Of a stretch of DNA of 47,876 bases, positions 2,401 through 27,680 are shown in pieces. Within the stretch, counting starts at the first letter, position 1, and the number at the start of each line of letters is the position of its first letter. The notes beneath the pieces were generated by a model. The model had not been told where the DNA came from. It worked only from the letters and a program-made list of their open reading frames with translations, and searched no databases. The translations under genes were made by a program, and so were the position numbers. Source of the stretch: Piscinibacter sp. (GTDB taxonomy: Bacteria > Pseudomonadota > Gammaproteobacteria > Burkholderiales > Burkholderiaceae_C); assembly GCA_017983795.1 (NCBI GenBank), contig JAGOAS010000028.1, positions 1 to 47,876 of the forward strand. The letters run 5' to 3'.

Positions 2401-2470
2401 ATTACCCAAATGGGCTATCGAGGCTCACCCATCGCGGTAATAGACGGTGCAAGCCCCGCGCCGCGCTAAT
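2401..2470. promoter_or_regulatory. Divergent soxY/tusA control region: paired ACCC element plus promoter
   Basis: Plus strand: ACCCAAATGGG at 2404-2414, then ACCCATCGCGG starting 23 bp later at 2427, then TAGACG at 2441-2446, then GCTAAT at 2465-2470. The tusA start follows 26 bp after GCTAAT. TAGACG and GCTAAT separated by 18 bp fit a weak sigma-70 promoter whose -35 adjoins the second repeat, the position expected for an activator site. The same layout recurs at 12125-12246 and 27615-27680. Read on the minus strand, bases 2401-2443 are nearly identical to bases 12151-12194 upstream of dsrA. The binding protein is unknown; the NarL-like regulator encoded at 25598-26299 is the best local candidate. 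Confidence 0.62.
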
Positions 2471-2495
2471 AGGCGCGTTTGAGCTGGAGACATGC

Positions 2496-2723
2496 ATGAA
2501 CTTCGACAAGGAATTCGACGCCTCGGGCCTCGCCTGCCCGCTGCCCATCGTCAAGACGAAGAAGTCGCTCGCCGACATGGCCCCGGGCCAGGTGCTGCGC
2601 GTCGTCGCCACCGACCCCGGCTCGGTCTGCGACATGGCGGCCTTCGCCGAGCAGACCGGCCACGCGCTGCTGCACTCGGGCAGCGAGGGCGGCAAGTACG
2701 TGTTCTTCCTGAAGAAAGCCTGA
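2496..2723 (+). CDS. tusA: Sulfur carrier protein TusA
   Basis: A 75-aa cytoplasmic sulfur carrier of the SirA/TusA family. It has the diagnostic CPLP motif in SGLACPLPIVKTKKSL, with Cys14 as the persulfide-bearing residue, and the family's DPGSV segment. TusA accepts sulfane sulfur from a rhodanese and hands it to DsrEFH and then DsrC in sulfur oxidisers. The start ATG 2496 has GGAG about 7 bases upstream. dsrE2 follows after 4 bp, the classical tusA-dsrE2 pair; the rhodanese usually found beside them is instead at 37780-38211. Confidence 0.95.
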   Translation: MNFDKEFDASGLACPLPIVKTKKSLADMAPGQVLRVVATDPGSVCDMAAFAEQTGHALLHSGSEGGKYVFFLKKA

Positions 2724-2727
2724 GCCC

Positions 2728-3198
2728 ATGACCGCCAAGAAGATGGCGATCATCGCCACCAAGGGCGCGCTGGACATGGCCTACCCGCCGCTCATCCTCG
2801 CCTCCACGGCGGCGGCGCTGGGCTGGGAGGTGCAGGTGTTCTTCACCTTCTACGGCCTGCAACTGCTGCGCAAGGATCTGAGCGGCATCGCCATCAGCCC
2901 GCTGGCCAACCCGGCCATGCCCATGCCCGTGCCCATGCCGGTGATCGTCTCGGTGCTGCCGGGCATGCAGGCCATGGCCACCTCGATGATGAAGGCCAAG
3001 ATGAAGAAGAAGGGCGTGGCCTCGCTCACCGAACTGCGCGACCTGTGCCAGGAAGCCGAGGTGAAGTTCATCGCCTGCCAGATGACGGTCGACCTGTTCG
3101 AGTTCGACAAGAACGACTTCATCGACGGCATCGAGTACGGCGGCGCGGCGACCTTCATGAAGTTCGCCGGCGAGACCGACGTCTGCCTGTTCATCTGA
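2728..3198 (+). CDS. dsrE2: DsrE2-type membrane-associated sulfur-transfer protein
   Basis: A 156-aa member of the DsrE/DsrF/DrsH-like family, subgroup DsrE2. The N-terminus KKMAIIATKGALDMAYPP opens the Rossmann-like fold, and a hydrophobic Pro/Met-rich stretch (residues 60-85, ANPAMPMPVPMPVIVSVLPG) is typical of DsrE2. Cys107 and Cys117 (FIACQMTVD) are present; the latter matches the conserved DsrE2 cysteine. In rhd-tusA-dsrE2 clusters it takes part in trafficking sulfane sulfur towards the rDsr pathway. It lies 4 bp after tusA and is surely cotranscribed. The ribosome-binding site is weak. Confidence 0.92.
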   Translation: MTAKKMAIIATKGALDMAYPPLILASTAAALGWEVQVFFTFYGLQLLRKDLSGIAISPLANPAMPMPVPMPVIVSVLPGMQAMATSMMKAKMKKKGVASLTELRDLCQEAEVKFIACQMTVDLFEFDKNDFIDGIEYGGAATFMKFAGETDVCLFI

Positions 3199-3202
3199 GG
3201 CC

Positions 3203-4078
3203 GTGAAGAAGCTGCTCGCGGCGCTCGCCGCCCTGCTGCTCGCCCCGGCCTGCCTGGCGGTCGGGCCCTACCTCGCCGGCAGCAGCATGCCGGCCGGCGA
3301 ACTGCCGGCGCTGATGGGCCGCGTCGAGCAGAAGCTGCGCGACGACGGCTTCGCCGTGGTCGGCCGCCACCTGCCGCCGGGCCTGCCCCAGCACGGCAGC
3401 GTGATCGTCACCGACCCCGCGCTCAACCAGGCCGCACGCAAGGCCGGCGGCACGGCCGTGCTGGCCACGGCCCTGCGCATCGGCGTGAAGAGCGACGGCA
3501 GCATCTCCTACATGAACCCCGACTACTGGGGCCGCGCCTATCTGCGCGAAGGCTTCGCCGGCGCCGAGCCGGCGCTGCGCTCGGTGCGCGCGCGCCTCGC
3601 CCATGCGCTCGGCGAAGGCGCGGCTTTCGGCGGCGACGTGCCCGAGGCCGATCTGCCCAGCTACCGCTACATGATCGGCATGGAGCGCATCGACTCGCTG
3701 CGCAACGAGTTGGCCAGCTTCGCGAGCTTCGGCGAGGCGCTCAAGACCGTGCGCGCCAACCTCGCCAAGGGCGTGGGCGGCACTTCGGCGGTCTACGAGG
3801 TGGTGCTGCCGGAAGCCAAGCTGGCGGTGATCGGCGTGGCGATGAACGACCCCGAAACCGGCGAGGGCTGGTGGGCCGGCAAGATCGGCCCCGACCACGT
3901 GGCCGCCCTGCCCTACGAGATCTACCTCATCGACGGCAAGGCCTACGCGCTCTACGGCCGCTACCGCATCGCGCTGTCGTGGCCGGCGCTGGGCATGGGG
4001 CAGTTCATGCGCATCGCACGCGCGCCCGACCTGATCCACGAGACCCTCGCGCGCGTCGCCGGCGCCGCAGCGCGCTGA
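3203..4078 (+). CDS. Secreted DUF302-like protein of unknown function
   Basis: 291 aa starting at a GTG 4 bp after dsrE2. Residues 1-19 (MKKLLAALAALLLAPACLA) form a clear export signal; a Cys at about 17 leaves a lipoprotein possibility, although no convincing lipobox is seen. The mature part has RVEQKLRDDGFAVVGRHLP and ALRIGVKSDGSISYMNP, which resemble DUF302 (TTHA1751-like) domains, followed by a longer C-terminal extension. No metal or haem motif is visible. Position between dsrE2 and a sulfur-compound permease suggests a periplasmic role in sulfur metabolism, which is inference. The DUF302 link is by eye only. Confidence 0.7.
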   Translation: MKKLLAALAALLLAPACLAVGPYLAGSSMPAGELPALMGRVEQKLRDDGFAVVGRHLPPGLPQHGSVIVTDPALNQAARKAGGTAVLATALRIGVKSDGSISYMNPDYWGRAYLREGFAGAEPALRSVRARLAHALGEGAAFGGDVPEADLPSYRYMIGMERIDSLRNELASFASFGEALKTVRANLAKGVGGTSAVYEVVLPEAKLAVIGVAMNDPETGEGWWAGKIGPDHVAALPYEIYLIDGKAYALYGRYRIALSWPALGMGQFMRIARAPDLIHETLARVAGAAAR

Positions 4079-4096
4079 CGCAACGGAACACTCGAC

Positions 4097-5215
4097 ATGG
4101 ACGCCGCCGCCAACCCCGCCAGCGTGGTCGTGTGGGGCGGCTTCGTGCTCGCCTTCCTGTTCGGCGCGATCGCCGCCAAGGCCAACTTCTGCACCATGGG
4201 CGCGGTGTCCGACGTGGTCAACATGGGCCACTGGGGGCGCATGCGCATGTGGCTGCTGGCCATCGCGGTGGCCATCGTCGGCGCCACCGCGCTCGCGCAG
4301 GCCGGGCTGGTGGACATCGGCAAGAGCATCTACCAGCGCAGCACGCTGAACTGGCTCTCGCTGGTGGTGGGCGGCGCGCTGTTCGGCGTGGGCATGTCGC
4401 TGGCCGGCGGCTGCGCCAACAAGAACCTGATCCGCCTCGGCGGCGGCAGCCTGCGCTCGCTGGTGGTGCTGTGCTTCCTCGCCATCTCGGCCTACATGAC
4501 GCTCAAGGGCCTGTTCGGCCAGTGGCGTGCCACCTGGCTGGACCCGGTGGCGATCGACCTGGCGCGCTTCGGCTGGAAAGACCAGGGCCTGCCCACGCTG
4601 CTGGCCTCGGTGGGCATCGCACCGCAAACGGCGCGCTGGCTCGCGGCGGGCGCGGTGGCGCTGCTGCTGCTCGGCTTCGTCTTCGCCGACAGGCGCTTCC
4701 GCGCCAACCCCGCGCAATGGCTGGCCGGCCTCGCGCTCGGCGCGCTGGTGGTGGGCGGCTGGTACGTCAGCGGGCACCTCGGCTTCGGCGAGAACCCCGA
4801 AACGCTCGAGACCGGCTACTTCGGCACCAACACGCGCACGCTCGAATCGCTCAGCTTCGTCGCGCCGCTGGCCTACGGGCTGGAGTTGCTGATGCTGTGG
4901 ACCGACAAGTCGCTGCACCTGAGCTTCGGCATCGCCAGCGCGCTGGGCGTCGCGCTCGGCTCGGCCGCCTGGGCATTGGCCACGCGCAGCTTCCGCTGGG
5001 AAGGCTTCGCCTCGCTGGCCGATTTGCGCAGCCAGCTGATCGGCGCGGTGCTGATGGGCTTCGGCGGCGTCACCGCGATGGGCTGCACCGTGGGCCAGGG
5101 CCTCACGGGCGTGTCGACGCTGGCGCTCGGTTCCTTCCTCGCGCTCGCGTCCATCCTCGCCGGCTCTGCCGCGACCTTGAAGTACATCACCTGGCGCGCC
5201 GAGCGCGAGGCCTAG
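4097..5215 (+). CDS. YeeE/YedE family sulfur-compound permease (TsuA-like)
   Basis: A 372-aa integral membrane protein with about ten hydrophobic segments and the conserved cysteine motifs of the YeeE/YedE (TsuA, Sulf_transp) family: KANFCTMGAVSD (Cys32), MSLAGGCANKNLIRLGGGS and FGGVTAMGCTVGQGLTGVS. In TsuA these half-channel cysteines pass thiosulfate across the inner membrane by transient S-H-S contacts. Here the likely role is importing thiosulfate or another reduced sulfur compound for the TusA/Dsr route. It is the two-repeat full-length form rather than a split pair. It lies 18 bp downstream of the DUF302-like gene on the same transcript. Confidence 0.88.
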   Translation: MDAAANPASVVVWGGFVLAFLFGAIAAKANFCTMGAVSDVVNMGHWGRMRMWLLAIAVAIVGATALAQAGLVDIGKSIYQRSTLNWLSLVVGGALFGVGMSLAGGCANKNLIRLGGGSLRSLVVLCFLAISAYMTLKGLFGQWRATWLDPVAIDLARFGWKDQGLPTLLASVGIAPQTARWLAAGAVALLLLGFVFADRRFRANPAQWLAGLALGALVVGGWYVSGHLGFGENPETLETGYFGTNTRTLESLSFVAPLAYGLELLMLWTDKSLHLSFGIASALGVALGSAAWALATRSFRWEGFASLADLRSQLIGAVLMGFGGVTAMGCTVGQGLTGVSTLALGSFLALASILAGSAATLKYITWRAEREA

Positions 5216-5249
5216 AGTGATGGGCTTCACGACGATGGGAGCGGATTCG

Positions 5250-5813
5250 ATGATCAAGCATTCACTGGCCCTGCTGCTGGCCGCAGCGGCGACGCACGCC
5301 GGCGCGCAAGATGCCTGGGTGGCCGAGGCGCGCCAGGTCGCGAGCTCGGTGCCGCCCAAGCTGCTTGCCGTGCTGACCGCCGAGATCGAGCGCAGCGGGC
5401 CGGCCGGCGCCATCACCAGCTGCCGCGACGAAGCGCCCAAGCTGGCTCGCGCCGCCTCGCAGGACAGCGGCTGGGCCGTGCGCCGCGTCTCGCTGCGCGA
5501 GCGCAACCCCAAGGCCGTGCCCGACGATTGGGAACGCGCCGCGCTGGAAGACTTCGACCGCCGCGCCGCGGCCGGCGAGAAGCCCGCCACGCTGGAGCGC
5601 GCCGAAGTCGTGCAGCAGCAGGGCCGCGCGGTGATGCGCTACATGCGCGCCCTGCCGGTGATCGAGCTGTGCACCGGCTGCCACGGCACGGCCGATCGCA
5701 TCAGCCCGGCCGTCAAGGAACGCCTCGCCGAGCTCTACCCGCAGGACAAGGCCACCGGCTACAGCCTCGGCCAGATCCGCGGCGCGATGACGATCAGCAA
5801 GCCGCTGCCCTGA
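5250..5813 (+). CDS. Periplasmic single-haem c-type protein (DUF3365/Tll0287-like)
   Basis: A 187-aa protein with a signal peptide (MIKHSLALLLAAAATHAGAQ) and one c-type haem site, CTGCH at residues 141-145. The preceding VRRVSLRERNPKAVPDDWE and GRAVMRYMRALPVIELC match DUF3365 (Tll0287-like) haem domains, which are often attached to sensors or act as free periplasmic cytochromes. ATG 5250 is chosen because it places the signal peptide at the N-terminus and has GGGAG upstream; starts at 5217/5220 would prepend a non-signal segment. The last 20 bp overlap the convergent gene at 5794-6852. A function in electron transfer or redox sensing is inferred. Confidence 0.83.
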   Translation: MIKHSLALLLAAAATHAGAQDAWVAEARQVASSVPPKLLAVLTAEIERSGPAGAITSCRDEAPKLARAASQDSGWAVRRVSLRERNPKAVPDDWERAALEDFDRRAAAGEKPATLERAEVVQQQGRAVMRYMRALPVIELCTGCHGTADRISPAVKERLAELYPQDKATGYSLGQIRGAMTISKPLP

Positions 5814-6852
5814 GCAGCGCGTCGATCGGCCGGGCCGCGCCCGCGCCGTGCTCGCGCCACAGGCCCAGTGCCTGCTCGGCCACCTCGGCGAAGTGGCGCT
5901 CGCCTGCAGTGCAGGCGCGTGCCAGCGCCGCCGTGCCCAGGCCATCGCACCAGGCGCGATACGCGTCGGCGAGGCCGGGGAAGAGCTGGCGCCGCACGCC
6001 GTCGTAGCCGGCGAACCAGAAGTGCAGCGAGACCGCCTCGTCGCGTTCCAGCAGCGCGGGCAGCGTAGTGCCCAGGTCGGCCAGGTGATCGCGCACGGCG
6101 CGCAGCAGCAGCTCGGTGCGGCGATCGTCCAGCGCCAGCAGCATCTCGCCCCAGGCGGGGCCGAGACGGCGGCCGGCGCGGTGCTCGCCGATCTCGTGCA
6201 GGATCAGCGTCTCGGCCTGCTCGTCGAGCATGCGCGGCAGGCCGGCGAGAAAGTCGCGCTCCAGGTCGTAGGCCTGCGCCACCGCCTTGAAGGGGCCGTC
6301 GGCGCGCTTCAGGCCGAAGACCTCGAATTTCTCCCACAGCCAGCGCGCCATCGCTTCGCGGCGCAGCACGATGGTGTCGCCGGCCAGCACCGCCGGCGGC
6401 GCGAACAGGCCGCGCGCCCATTCGCGGCCGCACAGCTGCACGCGCAGGCCCTCGGCTTCGATGGCGCGCAACTCGATCAGCTCGGCGAGAAAGAAGCCAG
6501 GCCGCCGCGCCCCGGCCCAGCCGGCGCCGTAGACCAGGCCTTGCGCCTGCAGCTGCGCGTTGAGCGGCGCAGTCTCGAAGGGCTCGCCGCCCGCGTCGTC
6601 GACACCTTCGAGCGGCAGGCGCAGGAATTCGCGCGCTTCCAGCTCCGCCCACAGCGCCTCGCGCTGCGCGATCCAGGCGCCGACCTCGGCGCGCTGCAGC
6701 GGCGCATTCAGCGGCAGGCCGCGCTCCCAGCGGTGGAACTCGCGCATCTGCAGCAGGAAGGTGCACAGGCTCAGGTCCTGCGCATGGCGTGCATCGGCGA
6801 TGTGGCAGTTGGTCTGCACCGCCTCCAGCAGTGCGCCGCTCGGGCGCGTCAC
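5794..6852 (-). CDS. Sfum_1244-like conserved protein
   Basis: 352 aa starting at a GTG that overlaps the TGA of the upstream gene (GTGA), so translation is coupled. The N-terminus AVQTNCHIADARHAQDLSLC and LQMREFHRWERGLP are hallmarks I associate with the Sfum_1244 family, found in sulfur-metabolising and other anaerobic bacteria; its biochemistry is unknown to me. A later EIGEHRAGRRLGPAWGEML segment contains conserved His/Glu residues. No signal peptide or membrane segment is seen. It is the last gene of the minus-strand accessory operon and its 3' end overlaps the c-type haem gene. The family name is from memory and needs a profile search. Confidence 0.72.
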   Translation of the reverse strand: MTRPSGALLEAVQTNCHIADARHAQDLSLCTFLLQMREFHRWERGLPLNAPLQRAEVGAWIAQREALWAELEAREFLRLPLEGVDDAGGEPFETAPLNAQLQAQGLVYGAGWAGARRPGFFLAELIELRAIEAEGLRVQLCGREWARGLFAPPAVLAGDTIVLRREAMARWLWEKFEVFGLKRADGPFKAVAQAYDLERDFLAGLPRMLDEQAETLILHEIGEHRAGRRLGPAWGEMLLALDDRRTELLLRAVRDHLADLGTTLPALLERDEAVSLHFWFAGYDGVRRQLFPGLADAYRAWCDGLGTAALARACTAGERHFAEVAEQALGLWREHGAGAARPIDALLRAAAC

Positions 6853-7295
6853 GGCCCGGGCCCCCGGTAGCGGCGGCGCGGCTGCCAGGCCGCCATCGCC
6901 AGCACCATGGGCTGCCAGGGCAGATCCATCAGGCTGCCGTGGCGCTCCTGCGCCAGGCCGACCAGCGCATGCACGTCGGCCTGCGGCTGCGCCTGCAGCT
7001 GCACGCGCAGCGCCGCGAGGCCGCCGCATTGCAGCTGCAGCGCCTTGGCATGCACCAGCGGTGCCGGCGGCCGCGGCAGGCGCAGCGCGAAGGCGGCGCG
7101 CTCGCGCATCAGTGCGGCCAGCGTGCCGCAGTTGACGCGCGCCACCGGCGAGGCGCACACCAGCGCATCACCCTCGCCGACCGACTGCCGCTGCGCCAGC
7201 TCGCAGCGCGCTGCGTGCGCCAGCAGCGCCTTGGTGAAGACGCAGGCCGCCGCACCGTGGCAGCACGAGCTTGCGCAGGCACCGGGGTCGTCCAT
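6849..7295 (-). CDS. Cys-rich conserved protein of unknown function
   Basis: 148 aa. The first half is rich in cysteines (DDPGACASSCCHGAAACVF, then RCELAQ, LVCASPVARVNCGTL), with at least eight Cys before residue 60; the second half is Arg/Leu-rich with one further Cys (LQLQCGGLAAL). The pattern suggests a Fe-S, zinc or thiol site but fits no motif I recognise. It overlaps the Sfum_1244-like gene by 4 bp and follows the 72-aa gene after 10 bp, so it is part of the same operon. Partnership with the Sfum_1244-like protein is inferred from the tight coupling. Confidence 0.7.
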   Translation of the reverse strand: MDDPGACASSCCHGAAACVFTKALLAHAARCELAQRQSVGEGDALVCASPVARVNCGTLAALMRERAAFALRLPRPPAPLVHAKALQLQCGGLAALRVQLQAQPQADVHALVGLAQERHGSLMDLPWQPMVLAMAAWQPRRRYRGPGP

Positions 7296-7305
7296 CGTGT
7301 CGAAC

Positions 7306-7524
7306 TCAATCGTCGCCCGAAGGGCCGGCCTCGCGCACCTGGCTCAGCAGGTCTTCGGCCTGCAGCTCGTTCTCGGCGAACATCACCTTGACCTTGCCGG
7401 GCGTGCCCGGCGCATCGGCGGCGCGCAGCGCCTTGGCCTGCGCCGACGCCTCGGCGAAGCGCTCGAACTGGTCGAGCTTCTTCAGCACGCCCAGCGGCTG
7501 GATGCGGTAGAGGTAGTAGGGCAT
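7306..7524 (-). CDS. Small conserved hypothetical protein (72 aa)
   Basis: A 72-aa protein beginning MPYYLYRIQPLGVLKKLDQF and continuing with an Ala-rich helix and KVKVMFAENELQAEDLLSQ. It looks like a compact alpha/beta soluble protein; there are no cysteines, signal or membrane segment. It sits 7 bp after the S24-like gene and 10 bp before the Cys-rich gene. Short proteins with this YLYRI start and a FAENELQAE segment look conserved rather than spurious, but I cannot name a family or function. Confidence 0.68.
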   Translation of the reverse strand: MPYYLYRIQPLGVLKKLDQFERFAEASAQAKALRAADAPGTPGKVKVMFAENELQAEDLLSQVREAGPSGDD

Positions 7525-7531
7525 GCGAACC

Positions 7532-9324: not shown

Positions 9325-9329
9325 GCGGC

Positions 9330-10295: not shown

Positions 10296-10296
10296 C

Positions 10297-10911: not shown

Positions 10912-10919
10912 GCGAAGGC

Positions 10920-11249: not shown

Positions 11250-11271
11250 CGTTGCTGTCTCTCCTGTCGTC

Positions 11272-11886
11272 TCACTCGATCTCGCCGACCGCGGCGGCCG
11301 ACTTGTGCGGCACGAAGACGCCGCAGCCCATCAGGCGGTGCGCGCCCAGGCCGTGCTCGAGCACGCGCAGCGCCGCCGCCTCGCGCAGCCCGTGCAGCAT
11401 CAGGCTGTAGCCGTGCAGCGTGCGCAGCGGGCCGCGCACGTGTCGTTCGCGGCCGCAGATGCGCTGGCAGCGCACTTCCAGCTGCGCCAGCTCGGCGCCC
11501 ATCGCTTCGAGAAAGCCGGCCTCGTCAGCCTCGCCCGCGTCGACGAAATGGGCATACAGGGTGCCGTGCGGCAGCAGCTCGCGCGCCTGCGGCTGGCCGA
11601 GCTGCAGCTCGTGGCCGGCCACCACCAGCGTGCGCCCGGCCAGCGCGCGGGCCGCGTCGCCCGACTCGCGCGACACGCGCAGCACCAGCCGCGAGCGCGC
11701 CGAGAGCAGCGCCGGCTCGCCCGAACCGTGCACCAGCTTGACCGGGTGCACCGCCGCGAGCGCATCCTCGGCCAGCGCCGGCAGCGCCGCGCTCAAGGCC
11801 TGCGCCAGCGCCCAGTGGTGGTCGCGCGGCAGCGCGCGGCCTTGCAGCGGGAAGGCCAGGTCGAGCATCGTGGCCGCGTCAGCCAT
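11272..11886 (-). CDS. Orphan Cas6/Cmx6-like RNA-processing fold protein
   Basis: A 204-aa protein matching the pattern annotated in databases as type I-MYXAN Cas6/Cmx6: DLAFPLQGRALPRDHHWALA at the N-terminus (candidate catalytic His23/His24), a central ARSRLVLRVS strand, HGYSLMLHGL, and the C-terminal Gly-rich loop region GLGAHRLMGCGVFVPHKS. Cas6 enzymes cut CRISPR precursor RNA, but no CRISPR array or other cas gene is in this window. The gene overlaps the 74-aa gene by 8 bp and belongs to the sulfur accessory operon. RNA binding or cleavage is plausible from the fold; the target is unknown. The name is from memory. Confidence 0.78.
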   Translation of the reverse strand: MADAATMLDLAFPLQGRALPRDHHWALAQALSAALPALAEDALAAVHPVKLVHGSGEPALLSARSRLVLRVSRESGDAARALAGRTLVVAGHELQLGQPQARELLPHGTLYAHFVDAGEADEAGFLEAMGAELAQLEVRCQRICGRERHVRGPLRTLHGYSLMLHGLREAAALRVLEHGLGAHRLMGCGVFVPHKSAAAVGEIE

Positions 11887-12103
11887 CACGAAGCGCCTCC
11901 TGCGCTTCCGCCCAGCGCAACAAGGCCCGCCCCCACTCGGCGGCGGTCTGCGCATCGACCTCGAACACGGTGAAGCGACTCTTCTCGCGGATGCGCGTAC
12001 GCAGCAGGCTCATGCCGCCGCCTTCGTAGTCGATCTGCTGCAGCTCGATCTCCTGCCCGCCCAGGGGCACGCGCAGCTTGTCCAGCGGGGTCACGCGGGT
12101 CAT
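11879..12103 (-). CDS. Small conserved protein (74 aa), first gene of the minus-strand operon
   Basis: 74 aa beginning MTRVTPLDKLRVPLGGQEIE, with YEGGGMSLLRTRIREKSRFT and an amphipathic C-terminal helix (AAEWGRALLRWAEAQEALR). ATG 12103 has AGGAG 8 bases upstream. The predicted beta-rich N-terminus with a C-terminal helix suggests a small binding or chaperone-like protein, but I know no function. It overlaps the Cas6-like gene by 8 bp, so the two are translationally coupled and may work together. The promoter lies in 12125-12167, read on the minus strand. Confidence 0.74.
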   Translation of the reverse strand: MTRVTPLDKLRVPLGGQEIELQQIDYEGGGMSLLRTRIREKSRFTVFEVDAQTAAEWGRALLRWAEAQEALRDG

Positions 12104-12124
12104 CCACTTCTCCTGATCACCGGC

Positions 12125-12246
12125 ATTGGGCGCGGCCGCGGCGCGGGGGTCTATCACCGCGGTGGGTGAGCGCCGGATAACCCATTCGGGTAGTGCCCGC
12201 GCACCCATCCGGAGTGATGGCGCGCGCACCGGGCGCTACCTAGGAT
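12125..12246. promoter_or_regulatory. Divergent dsrA / accessory-operon control region: symmetrical ACCC elements
   Basis: Plus strand: ACCCATTCGGG (12180-12190) and, 23 bp on, ACCCATCCGGAG from 12203, then a TAGGAT at 12241-12246, 27 bp before the dsrA ATG. Minus strand: ACCCGAATGGGT from 12191, ACCCACCGCGGTG from 12167, TAGACC at 12153-12148 exactly 14 bp on, and CCCAAT at 12130-12125 after a 17-bp spacer, 22 bp before the 74-aa gene's ATG. The region is thus roughly mirror-symmetrical, with one copy of the promoter element facing each way around the shared central box. Bases 12151-12194 nearly match the reverse complement of 2401-2443. Confidence 0.62.
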
Positions 12247-12272
12247 GCATCCACCTCGAAGGAGACCTGCGC

Positions 12273-13565
12273 ATGGCCAAGAAGATGCACCCGACGCCGA
12301 TGCTCGACGAGCTCGAGAGCGGCCCCTGGCCCAGCTTCGTGACCGGCCTGAAGCGGCTGGCCGGCGAGAAGGACTACATGGTCGACCTGCTCGGCCAGCT
12401 CGAGACTTCCTACAAGACCAAGAAGGGCTACTGGAAGGGCGGCACGGTGGGCGTGTTCGGCTACGGCGGTGGCGTGATCCCGCGCTTCACCGAGCTGAAG
12501 GACGAGAACGACAAGCCGATGTTCCCCGACGCGGCCGAGTTCCACACCCTGCGCGTGCAGCCGCCGGCCGGCATGCACTACACCACCGAGGTGCTGCGCA
12601 AGATGTGCGACATCTGGGAGAAGCACGGCTCGGGCCTGATCGCCTTCCACGGCCAGAGCGGCGACATCATGTTCCAGGGCGCCACCACCGCCAAGGTGCA
12701 GGACGCCTTCGACGAGATCAACGAGCTGGGCTTCGACCTCGGCGGCGCCGGCCCCGCGGTGCGCACCTCGATGAGCTGCGTTGGCGCGGCGCGCTGCGAG
12801 CAGAGCTGCTACGACGAGGCCAAGGCGCACCGCCAGGTGATCAACACCTTCCTCGACGACATCCACCGCCCGGCCCTGCCCTACAAGTTCAAGTTCAAGT
12901 TCAGCGGCTGCCCGAACGACTGCATGAACTCCATCCAGCGCTCGGACATGGCCGTGATCGGCACTTGGCGCGACAACATGCGCACCGACGAGGGCCTGGC
13001 GCGCAAGTGGTTCGATGCGCACGGCATGAACGAGCTGGTCAACAACGTCATCGCGCGCTGCCCGACCAAGACCATCATGCTGAAGGAGATCAAGGACGTT
13101 GCCCGGGGCGACAAGATCTCCAGCGTGAAGATCAGCGACACCCACGCGCTGGAGATCGACAACGCCAACTGCGTGCGCTGCATGCACTGCATCAACGTGA
13201 TGACCGGCGCGCTGGCCAAGGGCACCGACACCGGCGCCACCATCCTGATCGGCGGCAAGCGCACGCTCAAGATCGGCGACCTGATGGGCACCGTCGTCGT
13301 GCCCTTCCTGCCGCTCAAGACCGACGAGGACTATGACGCGCTGGTCGAGCTGGGCCAGAAGGTGATCGACTTCTTCGCCGAGAACGCGCTCGAGCACGAG
13401 CGCACCGGCGAGATGATCGAGCGCATCGGCCTCGTCAACTTCCTCGAGGGCGTGGGCATCGAGATCGACCCGAACATGGTCGCGACGCCACGCACCAACC
13501 CCTACGTTCGCACCGACGGCTGGGAAGACGAAGTCGCCCGCATCGCCGCCAAGAAATCCGCCTGA
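12273..13565 (+). CDS. dsrA: Reverse-type dissimilatory sulfite reductase, alpha subunit
   Basis: 430 aa. DsrA with sirohaem/[4Fe-4S] ligands Cys169, Cys175 (SCVGAARCEQSC), Cys213 and Cys217 (SGCPNDC), and an inserted ferredoxin domain with Cys300, Cys303 and Cys306 (NCVRCMHCINV). With DsrB it forms the cytoplasmic alpha2-beta2 enzyme which, in sulfur oxidisers, converts DsrC-bound persulfide to sulfite. Context (dsrEFH and dsrL present, dsrD absent) argues for the oxidative direction. ATG 12273 follows GGAG and homologues start near MAKKMHPTPMLDEL. It is the first gene of the dsr operon and lies 27 bp after a TAGGAT candidate -10 box. Confidence 0.97.
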   Translation: MAKKMHPTPMLDELESGPWPSFVTGLKRLAGEKDYMVDLLGQLETSYKTKKGYWKGGTVGVFGYGGGVIPRFTELKDENDKPMFPDAAEFHTLRVQPPAGMHYTTEVLRKMCDIWEKHGSGLIAFHGQSGDIMFQGATTAKVQDAFDEINELGFDLGGAGPAVRTSMSCVGAARCEQSCYDEAKAHRQVINTFLDDIHRPALPYKFKFKFSGCPNDCMNSIQRSDMAVIGTWRDNMRTDEGLARKWFDAHGMNELVNNVIARCPTKTIMLKEIKDVARGDKISSVKISDTHALEIDNANCVRCMHCINVMTGALAKGTDTGATILIGGKRTLKIGDLMGTVVVPFLPLKTDEDYDALVELGQKVIDFFAENALEHERTGEMIERIGLVNFLEGVGIEIDPNMVATPRTNPYVRTDGWEDEVARIAAKKSA

Positions 13566-13579
13566 GGAGAGCCGAGAAC

Positions 13580-14650: not shown

Positions 14651-14651
14651 G

Positions 14652-16797: not shown

Positions 16798-16801
16798 GCG
16801 C

Positions 16802-18334: not shown

Positions 18335-18357
18335 ACACATTCCGAGGAGACAAGCCC

Positions 18358-20316: not shown

Positions 20317-20320
20317 CACG

Positions 20321-21426: not shown

Positions 21427-21439
21427 GAAGCGTTCGACC

Positions 21440-22642
21440 ATGGCACGCATAGACCACGGCTTCTACTCGCTCGAAGAGCGCATCTTCTACGTGCTGCTGC
21501 TGCTCGGCGGCGGCATCACGGCGGCCGGGCTCTACGCGGCGCACAGCATGGAGACGCACGGCCACGCCATCACCGGCATGACCAATCAGGTGGTGTGGGG
21601 CCTGCCGCACGTCTTCGCGATCTTCCTCATCGTGGCCGCCTCGGGCGTGCTCAACGTCGCCTCGATCGGCTCGGTATTCGGCCAGGCGCTCTACAAGCCG
21701 CGCGCGCCGCTGTCGGGCCTGCTCTCGCTGGCCATGCTCGCCGGCGGCCTCACGGTGCTGATGCTGGATCTGGGGCGGCCCGATCGGGTGATCGTCGCCG
21801 CCACGCACTACAACGCCAGCTCGGTATTCGCCTGGAACGTGCTGCTGTACTCGGGCATGGCGGCCATCGTGGCGCTCTATCTGTGGACGCTGCTGGAGCG
21901 GCGCATGAACCGCTACGCCAAGGCGGCTGGCGTCGCGGCGCTGATCTGGCGCTTCGCGCTGACCACCGGCACCGGCTCGATCTTCGCCTTCCTCGTGGCG
22001 CGCCAGGCGTATCAATCGGCGGTGCTGGCGCCGCTGTTCATCGTGCTCTCCTTCGCCTGGGGGCTGGCGGTATTCCTGATCGTGCAGGCCGCCATGTACG
22101 CCTGGAACGGCCAGGCGCTGCCCGAGGCCGTGCGCGCGCGCATGGCGCGGCTGCTGGGCGTCTTCGTGGCCGCGGCGCTGTACCTCGTCGCCGTCTACCA
22201 CCTCACCAACCTCTACTTCGCCAAGCAGGCCGCCTTCGAGGCCTTCATCCTGCTCGGCCGCGGCGACCCCTCGGGCCTCTTCGCGCCGCTCTTCTGGTTC
22301 GGCTACGTGGGGCTGGGCGCGCTGCTGCCCATGCTGCTGCTGTGGCTGCCGCAGGCGGCCGGCCCACGCTCGCTGCTGGCCGCCTGCGCGCTGGTGTTGC
22401 TGGGCGCCTTCGCGTTGCTGTTCGTCTTCATCATCGGCGGCCAGGCCTTCCCGCTGGAAATCTTCCCCGGCTACACGGCCACGAGCAGCTTCGCCGACGG
22501 CACGGCCGAGATCTACAGCCCGCGCTGGCCGGAATGGCTGCTCGGCTTCGGCGGGCTGGGCGTGGCCTTCCTGCTCACCACCATCGGCGTGCGGGCGCTG
22601 GACTTCCTGCCGCAGGACGATTTTGTCGGGCGTGCGGAGTGA
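21440..22642 (+). CDS. dsrP: DsrP, NrfD-like membrane subunit
   Basis: 400 aa with about ten transmembrane helices of the NrfD/PsrC type. It begins MARIDHGFYSLEERIFYVLL; characteristic segments are NQVVWGLPHVFAIFLIVAAS and VLMLDLGRPDRVIVAATHYN. DsrP connects the periplasmic DsrJO subunits with the quinone pool. It lies 13 bp after dsrO and 4 bp before dsrN. No haem ligands are expected and none are obvious. Confidence 0.95.
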   Translation: MARIDHGFYSLEERIFYVLLLLGGGITAAGLYAAHSMETHGHAITGMTNQVVWGLPHVFAIFLIVAASGVLNVASIGSVFGQALYKPRAPLSGLLSLAMLAGGLTVLMLDLGRPDRVIVAATHYNASSVFAWNVLLYSGMAAIVALYLWTLLERRMNRYAKAAGVAALIWRFALTTGTGSIFAFLVARQAYQSAVLAPLFIVLSFAWGLAVFLIVQAAMYAWNGQALPEAVRARMARLLGVFVAAALYLVAVYHLTNLYFAKQAAFEAFILLGRGDPSGLFAPLFWFGYVGLGALLPMLLLWLPQAAGPRSLLAACALVLLGAFALLFVFIIGGQAFPLEIFPGYTATSSFADGTAEIYSPRWPEWLLGFGGLGVAFLLTTIGVRALDFLPQDDFVGRAE

Positions 22643-22646
22643 AGCC

Positions 22647-24089
22647 ATGAGCCACCCCGCCCTGCTCGTCTCCGCCGCGCACAAGTCTTCCGGCAAGACC
22701 ACCGTCACGCTGGCGCTCGCGGCGGCGCTGGCGGCGCGCGGCCACGCCGTGCAGCCGTTCAAGAAGGGCCCCGACTACATCGACCCGATGTGGCTCACGC
22801 TGGCCGCCGGCCGCCCTTGCATCAACCTCGACCCGCAGCTGATGGGTTGGGACGAGATCACGCAGGTCTTCGCGCAGCGCATGCGTGGTGCCGGCATCGG
22901 CCTGGTGGAAGGCAACAAGGGCCTGCACGACGGCCTGGCGCTGGACGGCAGCAACAGCAACGCCGCGCTCGCCGCCCAGCTCGGCCTGCCGGTGCTGCTG
23001 GTGCTGGACACGCGCGGCATGACGCGCGGCATCGCGCCGCTGATCCTGGGCTACCAGGCTTTCGACCCCAGCATCCGCATAGCCGGCGTGATCCTCAACC
23101 ACGTCGGCGGGCCGCGCCACGAGGGCAAGCTGCGCGCCGTCATCGAGCACTACACCGACGTGCCGGTGCTGGGCGCCGTGCCCAAGGATGCGCGCCTCGC
23201 TCTGGCCGAGCGCCACCTGGGGCTGATGCCCGATCACGAACTCGGCGACGCGCCCGAGCGCGTGCGTGCGATGGGCGAGCTGATCGCCGGCTGCGTCGAT
23301 CTCGATCGCGTGCGCGCGCTGGCGGCTTCGCGCCGCCATGAGGACGTCGCCGCCCCCATCGCCGACGCCACCTTGCGAGCGGCCAACGCACCGCTGCGCA
23401 TCGGCATCGCGCGCGACAAGGCCTTCGGCTTCTACTACCCCGACGACCTCGAGGCGCTGGCCGCCGAGGGCGCCGAGCTGGTGCCCTTCGACACGCTCAC
23501 CGACCGCGCCCTGCCGCCGGCGCTCGACGGCCTGTTCATCGGCGGCGGCTTCCCCGAGCTCTTCATGGCCGAGCTGGAAGCCAACGTGTCGCTGCGCAGC
23601 GCGCTGCAGCGCGCCATCGCCGCCGGCCTGCCGACCTATGCCGAATGCGGCGGGCTGATGTACCTGGCGCGCTCGATCACCTGGAAGGAGCAGCGCGCGC
23701 AGATGGTCGGCGCCATTCCCGGCGATGTGGTGATGCATGCGCGGCCGGTGGGGCGCGGTTACGTGCGCGTCGAGGAGACGGGCGAGTTCCCCTGGCAGGA
23801 CGACGGCCACGAACCCGAGCTGCGCCTCGGCCACGAGTTCCACCACTCCAGCCTGCAGAACCTCGACCCCGCGGTGCAGTTCGCCTACCGCGTGCAGCGC
23901 GGCCACGGCATCGACGGCCTGCACGACGGCGTGATGGTGAACAACCTGCTCGCCAGCTACACCCATTTGCGCCACAGCGGCGGCAACGACTGGCCGCGCC
24001 GCTTCATCGCCTTCGTGCGGCGCGTGCGCGAGGACGCGGCGGCCGCGGCACCACTTCGCGTCGGAGGAAGCACATGGTCCACACGCTGA
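22647..24089 (+). CDS. dsrN: DsrN, sirohaem amidase (CbiA/CobB-like)
   Basis: 480 aa. A dethiobiotin-synthetase-like ATPase domain (SAAHKSSGKTTVTLALAAAL; FKKGPDYIDPMW) is followed by a class I glutamine amidotransferase domain with the nucleophile in PTYAECGGLMYL. In dsr loci this protein converts sirohaem to the sirohaem amide found in DsrAB. ATG 22647 is preferred over 22623, as MSHPALLVSAAHKSSGK matches the usual start. The 3' end overlaps the next gene by 16 bp. Confidence 0.94.
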   Translation: MSHPALLVSAAHKSSGKTTVTLALAAALAARGHAVQPFKKGPDYIDPMWLTLAAGRPCINLDPQLMGWDEITQVFAQRMRGAGIGLVEGNKGLHDGLALDGSNSNAALAAQLGLPVLLVLDTRGMTRGIAPLILGYQAFDPSIRIAGVILNHVGGPRHEGKLRAVIEHYTDVPVLGAVPKDARLALAERHLGLMPDHELGDAPERVRAMGELIAGCVDLDRVRALAASRRHEDVAAPIADATLRAANAPLRIGIARDKAFGFYYPDDLEALAAEGAELVPFDTLTDRALPPALDGLFIGGGFPELFMAELEANVSLRSALQRAIAAGLPTYAECGGLMYLARSITWKEQRAQMVGAIPGDVVMHARPVGRGYVRVEETGEFPWQDDGHEPELRLGHEFHHSSLQNLDPAVQFAYRVQRGHGIDGLHDGVMVNNLLASYTHLRHSGGNDWPRRFIAFVRRVREDAAAAAPLRVGGSTWSTR

Positions 24090-24427
24090 AGGGCACGGTG
24101 CGCGTCGGCGACCGCCTCATCGAGGTCGACTCCGAGGGCTATCTGCGCCACCTGGGCGACTGGTCGGAAGACTTCGCCCGCGCACTCGCCGAGCGCGAAG
24201 GGCTGGAGCTGACCGACGCGCACTGGGAGCTGATCCACTTCCTGCGCGCGTACTGGACCGAGCACGGCGTGCAGCCGCAGGTGCGCGTGATGATCCGCCA
24301 CTTCACCGCGCGCTGGGGCGCGCAGCGCGGCAGCAACCACCACCTGCACGAGATGTTCCCGCGTGGCGGCCCGCAGAAGCAGGGCAACCGGCTGGCGGGG
24401 CTGCTGCGCACCAAGGGCGAACACTGA
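24074..24427 (+). CDS. Cysteine-free DsrC/TusE-family paralogue
   Basis: 117 aa. The DsrC fold is recognisable (EVDSEGYLRHLGDWSEDFAR, TDAHWELIHFLRAYWTEHGV, MFPRGGPQKQGNRLAGLL), but it has no cysteine. CysB is replaced by Asn105 (KQGNR) and CysA by Glu116 (KGEH). It therefore cannot carry sulfur; a structural, competitive or regulatory role is likely, as suggested for cysteine-less DsrC-like proteins (RspA-type). GGAGG lies 7 bases before the ATG, which is inside the dsrN end. Located between dsrN and dsrR on the main dsr transcript. Confidence 0.9.
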   Translation: MVHTLKGTVRVGDRLIEVDSEGYLRHLGDWSEDFARALAEREGLELTDAHWELIHFLRAYWTEHGVQPQVRVMIRHFTARWGAQRGSNHHLHEMFPRGGPQKQGNRLAGLLRTKGEH

Positions 24428-24440
24428 AGGAGTAACGACG

Positions 24441-24809
24441 ATGTTCTCTCTGACCACCAACGCCGCCACGCGCATCCGCCAGGCCGCCGTCGAAGGCGGC
24501 ATGGAGGAACTGGCGCTGCGCGTCGCCGCACGCCGCGAGGCCGATGGCTCGATCACCTACGGCATGGGCTTCGACGAGGCACACGACGGCGAACACCCGG
24601 CGCTGCTGTCCGACGGCGTGACCGTGCTGATCGCCACCGCCTCGCAGCCGCTGCTGCAGGACACCGAGCTCGATTTCGTCGAACTCGAGCCGGGCCAGTA
24701 CGGCTTCGTCTTCGTGCCCCAGGCCGTACAGGCAACGGCGCCCACAACGCGCCGCGGCGGCTGCGGCGGTTGCGGCGGCGGCAGTTGCGGCACCGGCAGC
24801 AGCTGCTGA
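24441..24809 (+). CDS. dsrR: DsrR, A-type scaffold-like protein with Cys-rich tail
   Basis: 122 aa. The A-type (IscA/HesB) fold is seen in [20 protein letters not shown] and [20 protein letters not shown], with the CxC scaffold motif missing as in Allochromatium DsrR, a protein linked to post-transcriptional control of dsr expression. Unusually, the protein continues into a Gly/Cys tail (about residues 104-122, [17 protein letters not shown]) with four cysteines, resembling the Cys-rich tails of other IscA-like proteins. The tail may restore metal or Fe-S binding. GGAG precedes the ATG 13 bp after the third dsrC-like gene. Confidence 0.88.
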
Positions 24810-24828
24810 GATGCGCGGGAGCACGAGC

Positions 24829-25617
24829 ATGAACAAGGGCAAGGTCTACCTCGTCGGCGCCGGCCCGGGCGACCCCGATCTGCTCACCCTGAAGGCCGCG
24901 CGCTTGCTGCGCAGCGCCGAGGTGGTGGTGATCGACCAGCTCGTCTCGCCGGGCGTGCTGGCCCTGATCGGCCCGGGAGCGCGGCGCATCCACGCCGGCA
25001 AGCAGCGCAACCACCACACGCTGCAGCAGCACGAGATCAACGAGCTGCTCGTCTCGCTGGCGCGCCAGGGCAAGCAGGTGGTGCGGCTCAAGGGTGGCGA
25101 CCCCTTCGTGTTCGGCCGCGGCGGCGAGGAGGCACAGGAGCTGGCCGCCGCCGGCATCGCCTTCGAGGTGGTGCCGGGCGTCACCGCGGCCTGCGGCGTA
25201 TCGGCCTATGCCGGCATCCCGCTCACGCACCGCGACTTTGCGCAGAGCTGCACCTTCGTCACCGGCCACCTGAAGGACGGCGGCGCCGAGCTCGACTGGG
25301 CCGGCCTCGCCCGGCCGCACCAGACGGTGGTGATCTACATGGGCCTGACGGCGCTGGCGCAGATCTGCGCGAAGCTGATCGCCCACGGCCTGCCGCCGAC
25401 GCAGCCTGCAGCGGTGGTGCAGCAGGGCACGACCGCATCGCAGCGCGTGGTCACCGGCACGCTGGCCGATCTGGCGCAGCGCGTCGCGGCGGCCGGGCTG
25501 TCGTCACCCGCGCTGACCATCGTCGGCGAGGTGGTGCGGCTGCGCGAAGCGCTCGACTGGTACGCCGCCCAGCCAGTGGCCGCAGCGCCGCGCGAGCTCA
25601 GCGTGGCGTTCGCCTAG
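24829..25617 (+). CDS. cobA: Uroporphyrinogen-III C-methyltransferase
   Basis: 262 aa, SUMT family: [19 protein letters not shown] (substrate/SAM loop), [19 protein letters not shown], and [21 protein letters not shown]. It makes precorrin-2, the precursor of the sirohaem used by DsrAB, and as a stand-alone enzyme needs a separate dehydrogenase/chelatase. ATG 24829 is chosen over 24811 because homologues begin close to [13 protein letters not shown]. It ends the plus-strand dsr operon; its last 20 bp overlap the convergent response-regulator gene. The symbol cobA (or sumT) is by family. Confidence 0.93.
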
Positions 25618-26299
25618 CGCCTTCGACCAGGCTGGCGCCGCCCGGCGGCGCCGCGCGCTGCTCGACCGCGAACACCGCCGCCTCGACGCGCGAGTTGAGG
25701 TTGAGCTTGGTGAGGATGTGCCGCACGTGCAGCTTCACGGTGTCGTGGCTGATGTCCAGCGCCCGCGCGATGGTCTTGTTGCTCTCGCCGCGCGCCAGGT
25801 GCTCGAGGATCTGGCGCTCGCGCTCGGTCAACGAGGCCAGCAGATCGCGCCGCTCGGGCTCGCCGCTGCCGGCCTGCAGCATGTTGGCGAGCTTGAGCGT
25901 GAGCGCCGGCGCCACCGCCAGTTCGCCACGCGCCGCGCGGCCGATGGAGGCGATCACGTCCTCGGGCTCCATGTCCTTGAGCAGGTAGCCCTTCACGCCG
26001 GCGCGCAGCGCGGCGGCGAGGTCGTCCTGCGAATCGCTCATGGTGAGGATCACTGCCGGCGTGTCCACGCCCTCGGCGCGGATGTGGCGCAAGAGGCTCA
26101 GGCCGTCGGTGGTGGGCATGCGCAGATCGAGCACCACCAGGTCGGGCCGGTGCTCGCGCAGCAGGTCGACCACGCGCGTCGGGTCGCCGGTGGCGGCCGC
26201 CACCTGCATGCCGCCGCGGTGCTGCAGCAAGTCGGTCAGGCCGTTGCGACACAGCGAGTGGTCGTCGACCAGGATCACCTTGAGGAGCCGATCGTTCAC
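25598..26299 (-). CDS. NarL-like response regulator
   Basis: 233 aa from GTG 26299, overlapping the kinase stop (GTGA). Receiver domain with phospho-acceptor Asp58 ([13 protein letters not shown]) and conserved Asp pair (LVDDH); C-terminal LuxR-type helix-turn-helix ([40 protein letters not shown]). The recognition helix VKLHVRHIL is very close to that of E. coli NarL (VKVHVKHML), whose sites are TACYYMT heptamers. TACCCAT-like half sites occur in the three control regions of this locus, so this regulator is the prime candidate for controlling sox/tus, dsr and soe transcription; this is inference. Confidence 0.93.
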
Positions 26300-27486
26300 G
26301 ACGCGGCTCCCGCTGCGTTCCAGGCCAGGCGCACGCGCGTGCCGCCGCCGGGCCGTGCGCCGACGCTGAACTCGCCGCGCAGGCGCTGGGCGCGCTCGCT
26401 CATGATGCCGATGCCGAAGTGCGAGCCTTCGTCGCACTGCTCGTCGGCCGGGCGCGCTCCGATGCCGTCGTCGTCGACGCGCAGCTCGAAGCCCAGCGGC
26501 CCGCCTTCGATGCTCAGCCAGGCATGGCGCGCCTGCGAGTGGCGCTCGATGTTGGCCAGCGCCTCCTGCACGATGTGGAAGACCTCGGTCTGCACTTCGT
26601 CCGACAGGCTCAGCGGCAAGCCGGTGTTCGCGTAGGCCAGCACGATGGTGTTGCGCTCGCGGAAGCGCGCCACCAGCGCCTCCAGCGCATGGGCGAGGCC
26701 GCGCGGGTCGATGCGCGTGCGGAAGTGCGTGACGATCTCGCGCAGGCTGCCGTGCGCGTCGCCCACCGCCTGGCGCACGTCGGACAGGTAGGCGAGCGAG
26801 CGAGCCTCGTCGCCCTCGGCCACCGCGTCCTGCAGCAGCGGCAGGCGCATCTTCACGAAGGTCAGGGTCTGGGCGATCGAGTCGTGGATCTCGGCGGCCA
26901 TGGCCTGGCGCTCCTGCATCACCGAGGCACGCACGCTCTGCGCTTCCAGGCGGGCGTTGTCCAGCGCCAGGCCAAGCAACTCGCCCACCGAGCGCAGCAG
27001 CGCCATCACCTGCGGCGAGGGCTCGGCCTCGTCGGCGAAGAACAGGTTGTAGACGCCCAGCACGCGGCCGCGGCGCTGCAGCGGCACGGCCACCATGCGG
27101 CTGCAGGTACGGCCGAAGAAGTCGTCGCCGCCACGCTCGGCGCAGACGCGCAGATCGGACGACCAGACGATGCGCCGCGCGCCGGCGGCGTCGCCGCAGA
27201 TGCCGCAGCCGCGGTCGACCGTGGCTTCGCAGCGGTGCACGGCGTTGGGCAGGCCGATGTCGCTGACCAGCTGCAGCCGCTCGCCCGATTCGCTGAGCAG
27301 GCGCACCGCGCCCGAGTGCGCGCCGGCCAGCGCCACCACCGGCTCGAGCAGGCGGTCGAGCAGGCCGCGCAGGTCGCGCCCCTCGGCCAGGCCGGCGGCG
27401 AGCTGCACGAACAGGTCCGCGCCACCCGCATGCGGCGGCGCCGCGCTGGCGTCGGGGCGAGTCCTCTCCATGGCGTGTGCATCCAT
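26296..27486 (-). CDS. NarX/NreB-like GAF sensor histidine kinase
   Basis: 396 aa, soluble (no membrane segment). Residues 25-180 form a GAF domain with five cysteines (Cys86, 94, 97, 115, 128; CEATVDRGCGICGD), a set that might hold an Fe-S cluster or sense persulfide or redox state. The HisKA_3 dimerisation motif MAAEIHDSIAQTL carries His201; the HATPase domain shows EALANIERHSQA and FGIGIMSERAQRLRG. It pairs with the overlapping response regulator. It is divergent from soeA and shares that control region. A start at Met6 (27471) is also possible; no clear ribosome-binding site distinguishes them. Confidence 0.91.
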   Translation of the reverse strand: MDAHAMERTRPDASAAPPHAGGADLFVQLAAGLAEGRDLRGLLDRLLEPVVALAGAHSGAVRLLSESGERLQLVSDIGLPNAVHRCEATVDRGCGICGDAAGARRIVWSSDLRVCAERGGDDFFGRTCSRMVAVPLQRRGRVLGVYNLFFADEAEPSPQVMALLRSVGELLGLALDNARLEAQSVRASVMQERQAMAAEIHDSIAQTLTFVKMRLPLLQDAVAEGDEARSLAYLSDVRQAVGDAHGSLREIVTHFRTRIDPRGLAHALEALVARFRERNTIVLAYANTGLPLSLSDEVQTEVFHIVQEALANIERHSQARHAWLSIEGGPLGFELRVDDDGIGARPADEQCDEGSHFGIGIMSERAQRLRGEFSVGARPGGGTRVRLAWNAAGAAS

Positions 27487-27614
27487 CCGGCTGCGATTGA
27501 AGCGCGCCGGGGCGGCCCTGTCATCGGCAACAACCCCATACCCATGGCCGTATGCGCATCGGGCTTGCGCAAACTCAAGGGAAAGCGTCGCCGCGCGAGG
27601 GATCGGCGCACATC

Positions 27615-27680
27615 ACCCAGATGGGTAGGTGGTCATTACCCGTCCCGGCTATAGACGCTGCACGGCCGGCTTGCGCTAAT
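27615..27680 (+). promoter_or_regulatory. soeA control region: paired ACCC element plus promoter
   Basis: ACCCAGATGGG (27615-27625, palindromic with flanking T), then ACCCGTCCCGG from 27638 (23 bp start to start), then TAGACG at 27652-27657 (14 bp on) and GCTAAT at 27675-27680 after a 17-bp spacer. Both spacings equal those at the tusA promoter, and TAGACG and GCTAAT are identical there. It lies in the 245-bp gap between the divergent kinase and soeA; the rest of the gap shows nothing I can name. The GCTAAT end is 52 bp from the ATG chosen for soeA and 28 bp from an in-frame GTG at 27708. Confidence 0.62.

Follow-up and report, generated by a model that had tools for sequence, protein, structure and literature searches.

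How bacteria switch on the reverse dissimilatory sulfite reductase (Dsr) pathway, a widespread sulfur-oxidation route, is a question to which we know of no answer. It is raised here by a stretch of 47,876 nucleotides from Piscinibacter sp. (contig JAGOAS010000028.1, referred to as the window), in which a composite promoter element recurs before tusA, between dsrA and a divergent accessory operon, and before a molybdopterin oxidoreductase gene named 'soeA'. The element is real, conserved and linked to sulfur genes, and we predict it to be a tandem operator. We consider it likely that it serves a two-component regulon dedicated to sulfur oxidation, in which the response regulator encoded near soeA activates from tandem sites much as NarL does. 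What computation shows is that the element exists and is conserved, that it is concentrated before sulfur genes, and that the regulator is inherited along with them.

Architecture of the composite element

Each site consists of a distal, near-perfect 12-bp dyad, ACCC-N4-GGGY, followed 23-24 bp gene-ward by a weaker dyad, ACCC-N4-YGGY. The full order is distal dyad, 11-12 bp, proximal dyad, 2 bp, a -35-like TAGACG, 17-18 bp, and a -10-like GCTAAT. Both hexamers are poor against the sigma-70 consensus. Transcription starts were placed from the -10-like boxes, and relative to these inferred starts the dyads are centred at -67.5/-44.5 (tusA), -66.5/-43.5 (soeA) and -67.5/-43.5 (accessory operon, minus strand). 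The components are as follows.

2404..2415, plus strand: distal dyad ACCCAAATGGGC, tusA promoter, centre -67.5
2427..2438, plus strand: proximal dyad ACCCATCGCGGT, tusA promoter, centre -44.5
2441..2446, plus strand: -35-like TAGACG, tusA
2465..2470, plus strand: -10-like GCTAAT, tusA, inferred start 2477
12125..12130, minus strand: -10-like CCCAAT, accessory operon, inferred start 12118
12148..12153, minus strand: -35-like TAGACC, accessory operon
12156..12167, minus strand: proximal dyad ACCCACCGCGGT, accessory operon
12180..12191, both directions: central dyad of dsrA (plus) and the accessory operon (minus), about -67 for each
12203..12214, plus strand: weak proximal dyad ACCCATCCGGAG, dsrA
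12217..12222, plus strand: poor -35-like ATGGCG, dsrA
12241..12246, plus strand: -10-like TAGGAT, dsrA, inferred start 12253
27615..27626, plus strand: distal dyad ACCCAGATGGGT, soeA, centre -66.5
27638..27649, plus strand: proximal dyad ACCCGTCCCGGC, soeA, centre -43.5
27652..27657, plus strand: -35-like TAGACG, soeA
27675..27680, plus strand: -10-like GCTAAT, soeA, inferred start 27687

The central dyad is flanked by two proximal dyads and is thus common to the promoters of dsrA and the accessory operon. The initial annotation, whose quoted strings all occur in the window where it had placed them, described ACCCANNNGGG followed exactly 23 bp later by a second ACCC-type box. This distance is found on the plus strand at tusA, dsrA and soeA (2404/2427, 12180/12203, 27615/27638), and becomes 24 bp on the minus strand, where the accessory-operon site begins at 12191. 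The supposed boxes are better described as two 12-bp dyads of a NarL-like heptamer, and their spacing as nearly fixed rather than constant, since it ranges from 22 to 25 bp in relatives. The TAGAC expected 14 bp after the second ACCC is present at tusA, soeA and the minus-strand site, but dsrA carries ATGGCG there. A -10 box of the GCTAAT type lies 17-18 bp past the -35, as had been noted (18 bp at tusA, 17 bp at soeA and the minus-strand site); from its end to the start codon there are 25 bp (tusA), 26 bp (dsrA) and 21 bp (74-aa gene), each 1 bp less than the 26, 27 and 22 bp originally counted. The operator abuts the -35 region, and position alone does not prove the class II contact that was proposed for it.

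The genes that carry or adjoin the element are these.

1871..2374, minus strand: soxY, divergent from tusA
2496..2723, plus strand: tusA, 75 aa; TusA is the top NCBIfam match, its 57.6 bits falling short of the 78-bit cut-off
2728..3198, plus strand: dsrE2, next after tusA
11879..12103, minus strand: 74-aa DUF6967 gene, first gene of the accessory operon
12273..13565, plus strand: dsrA (522 bits, cut-off 392.85), with dsr genes alongside
27732..30641, plus strand: molybdopterin oxidoreductase gene 'soeA', start codon inferred

The name soeA is that of the initial annotation, and no curated family model confirms it. Two more TACCCAT heptamers flank the soeA operator on the plus strand (27539-27545 and 27727-27733), the second of which overlaps the inferred soeA start codon. 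Next to the DUF6967 gene, as second gene of this operon (11272-11955, minus strand), lies one for a protein of the Cas6/Cmx6 family (148.5 bits, cut-off 98.85), a fold associated with CRISPR processing; many of the relatives whose loci were retrieved have such a gene at the same place.

Specificity and conservation

Of the 6 exact matches to ACCCN4GGGN12ACC in the 4.24-Mb genome, 3 fall in the window. When one mismatch is allowed, the whole genome shows no enrichment (152 places versus 238 for the reversed control), and specificity therefore resides in the composite. The short pattern was accordingly rejected as a classifier, its one-mismatch version being no commoner than the control, and a sequence-only composite model, R1, was built in its place. 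R1 comprises 32 sites from regulator and dsr loci of other genomes, chosen by DNA pattern and not by gene. It excludes the window genome together with its congener G264 and L180, a near relative whose regulator is 90% identical, and at the remaining named loci behind the model the regulators are at most 78% identical to that of the window.

Across the whole genome of the window, R1 retrieves soeA (E 2.7e-10), tusA (5.1e-9) and the accessory operon (8.5e-8), followed by a next best match at 0.54; random sites with similar scores, which the initial annotation had named as a refutation, are absent. In the whole genome of the congener, R1 gives three matches, which a comparison of positions places at the three orthologous promoters. 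Two members of the family that lack DsrA (DsrA-) yield no match and a single match at 0.62, respectively. At E<=0.01, 25 of the 64 DsrA-bearing (DsrA+) genomes of the order have a match, at least 10 of these 25 having contributed sites to the model, as against 0/16 and 1/80 DsrA- genomes, i.e. 1/96, the single match standing at 0.0067.

The genes that follow the 32 model sites are soeA (14), the DUF6967 gene (8), tusA (3), sat (3), a YfcE-like phosphoesterase gene (3) and a sulfide:quinone-reductase-like (SQR-like) gene (1), and at 20 of the 32 the kinase gene lies on the opposite side within 0.9 kb. The whole-genome matches listed for the order amount to 61 places, 20 of which were fetched for gene context. 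Fourteen of the 20 precede sulfur-oxidation or accessory-operon genes: tusA-dsrE2 (5), soeA (3), sat (3), the DUF6967 gene (1), soxY (1) and an SQR-like gene (1), with sat in all three cases lying opposite to the direction of the model, 36-45 bp away. The others precede YfcE-like genes (3, one with the kinase gene opposite), a c-type cytochrome gene (1, sat lying across the site), a window orf3203 homologue with 32% identity (1) and an IS1595 transposase gene (1). Because sat, SQR-like and yfcE-like genes are already represented in R1, the new types are limited to soxY, the cytochrome and the orf3203-like gene, and soxY is the sole clear sulfur gene of a type absent from the model.

The operator before YfcE-like phosphoesterase genes of sulfur oxidizers was seen at L290, L303, L307, L205, L248 and L251, and the kinase gene lies across the site in 4 of these 6 loci. 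Matches before sat (ATP sulfurylase) were seen at L304, L305, L306, L100, L185 and L186; at the last three, sat replaces soeA opposite the kinase gene.

Conservation upstream of dsrA was assessed in the 30 best DsrA loci, including that of the window and eight from one genus (g44). Within 300 bp before dsrA, exact dyads with an N4 spacer are present in 15/30 loci and with an N5 spacer in 5/30 (0.1 expected each), and one or the other is present in 26/30 when one mismatch is allowed; all other spacings from N0 to N10 give 0 or 1 exact case each. When all 4-base inverted repeats within 450 bp before dsrA are scanned, ACCC-N4 ranks first (15/30, 0.35 expected). N4 dyads also precede soeA in 12/18 loci (GGGC/GCCC allowed, 0.9 expected) and the kinase gene in 18/75 (3.1 expected), the latter partly in the same gap as soeA. 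They precede the regulator gene in 1/79 loci, tusA in 0/2 loci of this set, cysG in 0/42, dsrN in 0/33, soeB in 0/20, dsrL in 0/18 and dsrP in 0/29.

The full composite was found at 40 distinct sites, two of which overlap, in 1.64 Mb of regulator and dsr loci that overlap in part; five block shuffles gave 0, 0, 1, 0 and 0 sites. As the filter fixes CCC-N4-GGG and allows one mismatch in A + ACCC + TAGAC, conservation of these columns is by construction. Outside the filter, the two proximal G positions are kept in 39 and 40 of the 40 sites, and a -10 box lies at 17-18 bp in 39/40. The absence of enrichment for the one-mismatch short pattern could be taken to mean that the element arose by chance or from local base composition. 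This explanation is refuted by the whole-genome test, in which R1 finds only sulfur promoters although no site of the window genome entered it, by the DsrA- controls and by the shuffles, and we give it next to no weight. The matrix is specific, and homologous loci carry the element before the same genes; the earlier proposal of a dedicated sulfur operator, here one that abuts the -35, is thus well supported.

The linked two-component pair as candidate regulator

Two genes divergent from soeA encode the candidate regulatory pair.

25598..26308, minus strand: NarL-type response regulator, candidate binder, with a receiver and a GerE/LuxR domain
26296..27486, minus strand: soluble sensor kinase, its partner, with GAF, HisKA_3 and HATPase domains

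The response regulator comprises a Response_reg (9.7e-27) and a GerE domain (4.7e-22), the latter aligned to NarL 1a04, the nearest solved structure by sequence. Residues D15, D16, D61, T89 and K111, which we take to be the phosphorylation residues of the receiver, are invariant in 17 aligned regulators. The kinase consists of GAF, HisKA_3 with its conserved His, and HATPase_c domains only; it contains no strongly hydrophobic segment, and no membrane anchor or periplasmic nitrate domain of the NarX/NarQ type. Four cysteines of its GAF domain, C94, C97, C115 and C128, are conserved in 75, 68, 76 and 55 of 77 kinases, that of the window included. They could plausibly respond to redox state, carry an Fe-S cluster or sense sulfane sulfur.

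With a match cut of 217 bits or more, chosen after seeing a gap down to 193 bits, the regulator has an orthologue in 59 of the 64 DsrA+ and in none of the 236 DsrA- genomes of the order. In G024 the pair is still kept at a distance of ~87 kb from dsrA on one contig. Across the class, the regulator is matched in 104/118 DsrA+ genomes at a cut of 1e-66, and in 110 DsrA+ genomes at 1e-50. Strong matches in class genomes with no DsrA were recorded in G366, G392, G419, G432, G443, G488, G500 and G533, further in G567, G596 and G661, and in the less complete G484, G535, G582 and G615. Among reduced DsrA+ genomes of ~1 Mb (G338 and G584 versus G440, G552 and G647), family f90 keeps the regulator despite having only two regulator-like candidates, whereas family f192 has no regulator match at 1e-50.

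The consensus of the NarL heptamer is TACYYMT, which the half-site YACCCAN of the element fits. An engineered NarL site reads TACCCCTAAAGGGGTA (PMC4549865). NarL-like 7-2-7 dyads (N6 spacer) before dsrA number 0/30 exact and 3/30 with at most one mismatch (3.6 expected); this spacing is at chance, and the element is therefore not a classical NarL operator. Four lines of evidence, namely co-inheritance, the half-site, the positions of the dyads and the covariation described next, make the linked NarL-type regulator most likely the protein that binds the dyads.

Outside the order, the class bears a variant of the dyad. ACCC-N4-GGGT is found before 0/29 gammaproteobacterial dsrA genes, and an unbiased dyad scan of the same 29 promoters returns TATC-N8-GATA in 12/29 (0.05 expected) and TCCC-N4-GGGA in 9/29, the variant being written TATCCC-N4-GGGATA. 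A search of 80 whole genomes for the exact TATCCCN4GGGATAG gave matches in 9/40 DsrA+ and 2/40 DsrA- genomes, and 9 of its 12 distinct places sit 125-269 bp before dsrA. The recognition helix is DGTVKLHVK in 28/29 regulators from the class outside the order, and ends in R in 74/79 regulators of the named loci (mostly betaproteobacterial by title), HDTVKLHVR being commonest. The change of operator between the beta and gamma groups is thus accompanied by a change of recognition helix.

We infer that the regulator binds the element and activates from it, and that cysteines of the kinase allow it to detect sulfur or redox conditions; we thus predict the binding, the signal and the direction of control. 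The soluble GAF kinase (26296-27486) would phosphorylate the NarL-type regulator (25598-26308), which would then bind as dimers to the two dyads of abutting heptamers near -44 and -67. Bound in this manner, it could recruit RNA polymerase to promoters with a poor TAGACG -35 and a GCTAAT -10. The dsr and accessory operons would thereby be co-activated together with tusA-dsrE2 and soeABC, joined in relatives by sat, soxY and the SQR-like gene. At dsrA, one central dyad would serve both divergent promoters.

Several observations weigh against the regulon as proposed. The dsrA site on the plus strand is the weakest, with a model score of 8.2 bits versus 33.7-41.7 for the other three. No R1 match is found in 39 of the 64 DsrA+ genomes, some of which carry dyads too divergent for the model, and 4/30 dsrA loci, including one truncated where its contig stops, have no N4 or N5 dyad at one mismatch. 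In the 450-bp scan TGCG-N4 (14), TCGA-N11 (14) and TCGA-N2 (13) come close to ACCC-N4, and four dyads tie at 8 when the set is thinned to 22 loci; we tentatively ascribe the rival dyads to the divergent DUF6967 coding sequence within those 450 bp. Five DsrA+ genomes of the order (G197, G201, G241, G256 and G271) have no regulator at the cut, and G197 has operator sites all the same. DsrA- genomes of the class match the regulator in 15/251 cases at 1e-66 and in 41 genomes at 1e-50. To these are added the chance-level N6 count and the joint change of helix and operator, which is weaker evidence than it looks because it may represent one event.

DsrC has reportedly been proposed to have a DNA-binding role in Allochromatium vinosum. 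The sulfur-regulon operator might thus be real and yet be bound by DsrC or an unlinked regulator, with the NarL-type pair merely co-inherited. The linked regulator is a predicted binder, the 7-2-7 spacing of NarL is absent, and G197 carries sites with no detected regulator, although this genome is a draft in 170 contigs. Opposed to another binder are the resemblance of the half-sites to the NarL heptamer, dyad positions equal to those of NarL activation at Escherichia coli ogt, the location of the pair beside soeA, its distribution in the order, its retention in G024 and the joint beta/gamma change of helix and operator. We regard another binder as unlikely.

The pair could also be a nitrate-sensing NarXL system that couples sulfur oxidation to denitrification. 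Its best family matches are indeed NarL (216.7 bits against the curated equivalog model, cut-off 250) and NarQ/NarX (far below the cut-offs); the NarL cut-off does not discriminate, because the narKG-linked NarL of the same genome also falls below it (214.8). That second NarXL-like pair lies beside two narK genes and narG, for which reason the sulfur-linked pair is probably not the nitrate system. The narKG-linked kinase has a strongly hydrophobic N-terminal stretch, whereas the sulfur-linked one is GAF-only and has none, and R1 gives no further match below 0.5 in the genome. In addition, A. vinosum is reported to have NarX/NarL (Alvin_1057/1058) without nitrate reduction genes (PMC3368242), a pair that may correspond to the sulfur-linked one. 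A nitrate sensor is in our judgement very improbable. No TACCY-Nk-RGGTA dyad (k 2-8) was found in the 15 kb around the NarXL-narK-narG locus, so that the operators of the two pairs could not be contrasted.

Relation to known systems and implications

The promoter geometry of the element corresponds to that of ogt-type tandem NarL promoters, with centres at -43.5/-44.5 and -66.5/-67.5 from inferred starts and a poor -35. At ogt, NarL activates from -44.5 and -77.5, an engineered -67.5 site also works, and NarL at -44.5 is described as acting through the alpha C-terminal domain (PMC7419079). Both systems involve the same response-regulator family, a TACYYMT-like half-site and tandem dimer sites, one of which abuts the -35. 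In contrast to E. coli NarL, whose dyads are 7-2-7 (N6), those described here are 7-0-7 (N4), and the dimer centres are 23-24 bp apart instead of 33 as at ogt. The kinase is a soluble GAF protein where NarX is a membrane nitrate sensor, and the predicted targets are sulfur genes.

Dedicated regulation of sulfur oxidation, as predicted here, is also exerted by SoxR and sHdrR of Hyphomicrobium, which differ in being ArsR-type, sulfane-sulfur-responsive repressors (PMC12423496). This precedent, together with the abutment of the proximal dyads on the -35, would fit a regulator that represses the promoters when reduced sulfur is absent. Yet the two dyads sit on the upstream side of the -35, clear of the -10 and the start, the -35 and -10 are poor, and the same positions serve NarL activation. 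Repression is therefore a reading we hold to be rather improbable, and we retain activation by the linked regulator.

NreC is a NarL-family regulator. The Bacillus licheniformis NreBC system is described as a sulfide-responsive two-component system activating sqr-pdo (PMC9918477). It resembles the control predicted here in that a two-component system acts on sulfide oxidation genes, and differs in its PAS sensor (GAF here), Gram-positive host and other target pathway. RsrS-RsrR of Acidithiobacillus caldus likewise provides two-component control of a sulfur-oxidation pathway (PMC5093147), but governs the tetrathionate pathway. For A. vinosum dsrC and dsrS, extra promoters are mentioned by PMC3368242, citing Grimm et al. 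2010. Among the papers that searches of an open-access library returned, none treats a NarL-type regulator or operator of reverse-Dsr genes in its title or the opening of its abstract, and subscription papers may add to this; no further paper naming Alvin_1057/1058 was found in that library.

We postulate, with more confidence than doubt, that the GAF-kinase/NarL-type pair is a dedicated reverse-Dsr master regulator in Beta- and Gammaproteobacteria, whose 7-0-7 operator co-evolved with the recognition helix (ACCC-N4-GGGT in the beta group, TATCCC-N4-GGGATA in the gamma group), and that the orphan 'NarXL' pairs of sulfur oxidizers that lack nitrate reductase, that reported in A. vinosum among them, would be the same system misnamed. 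Annotation of sulfur-oxidizer proteins as 'NarL' may, on this evidence, be erroneous. The result offers a testable candidate master switch for the pathway, with a named gene pair, an operator consensus of nearly fixed geometry, predicted starts and a target list that in relatives reaches sat, soxY and an SQR-like gene. Among cultivable strains, Hydrogenophaga aromaticivorans D2P1 (L193) and Ramlibacter lithotrophicus RBP-1 (L177) carry the locus in their genomes.

Elsewhere in the window, the 39.8-47.2 kb region contains an HsdR type I restriction subunit gene (44000-47245, minus strand) and a weak Fic-like protein gene (41931-43142, minus strand), beside which lies an anaerobic ribonucleotide reductase gene (39776-41788, minus strand).

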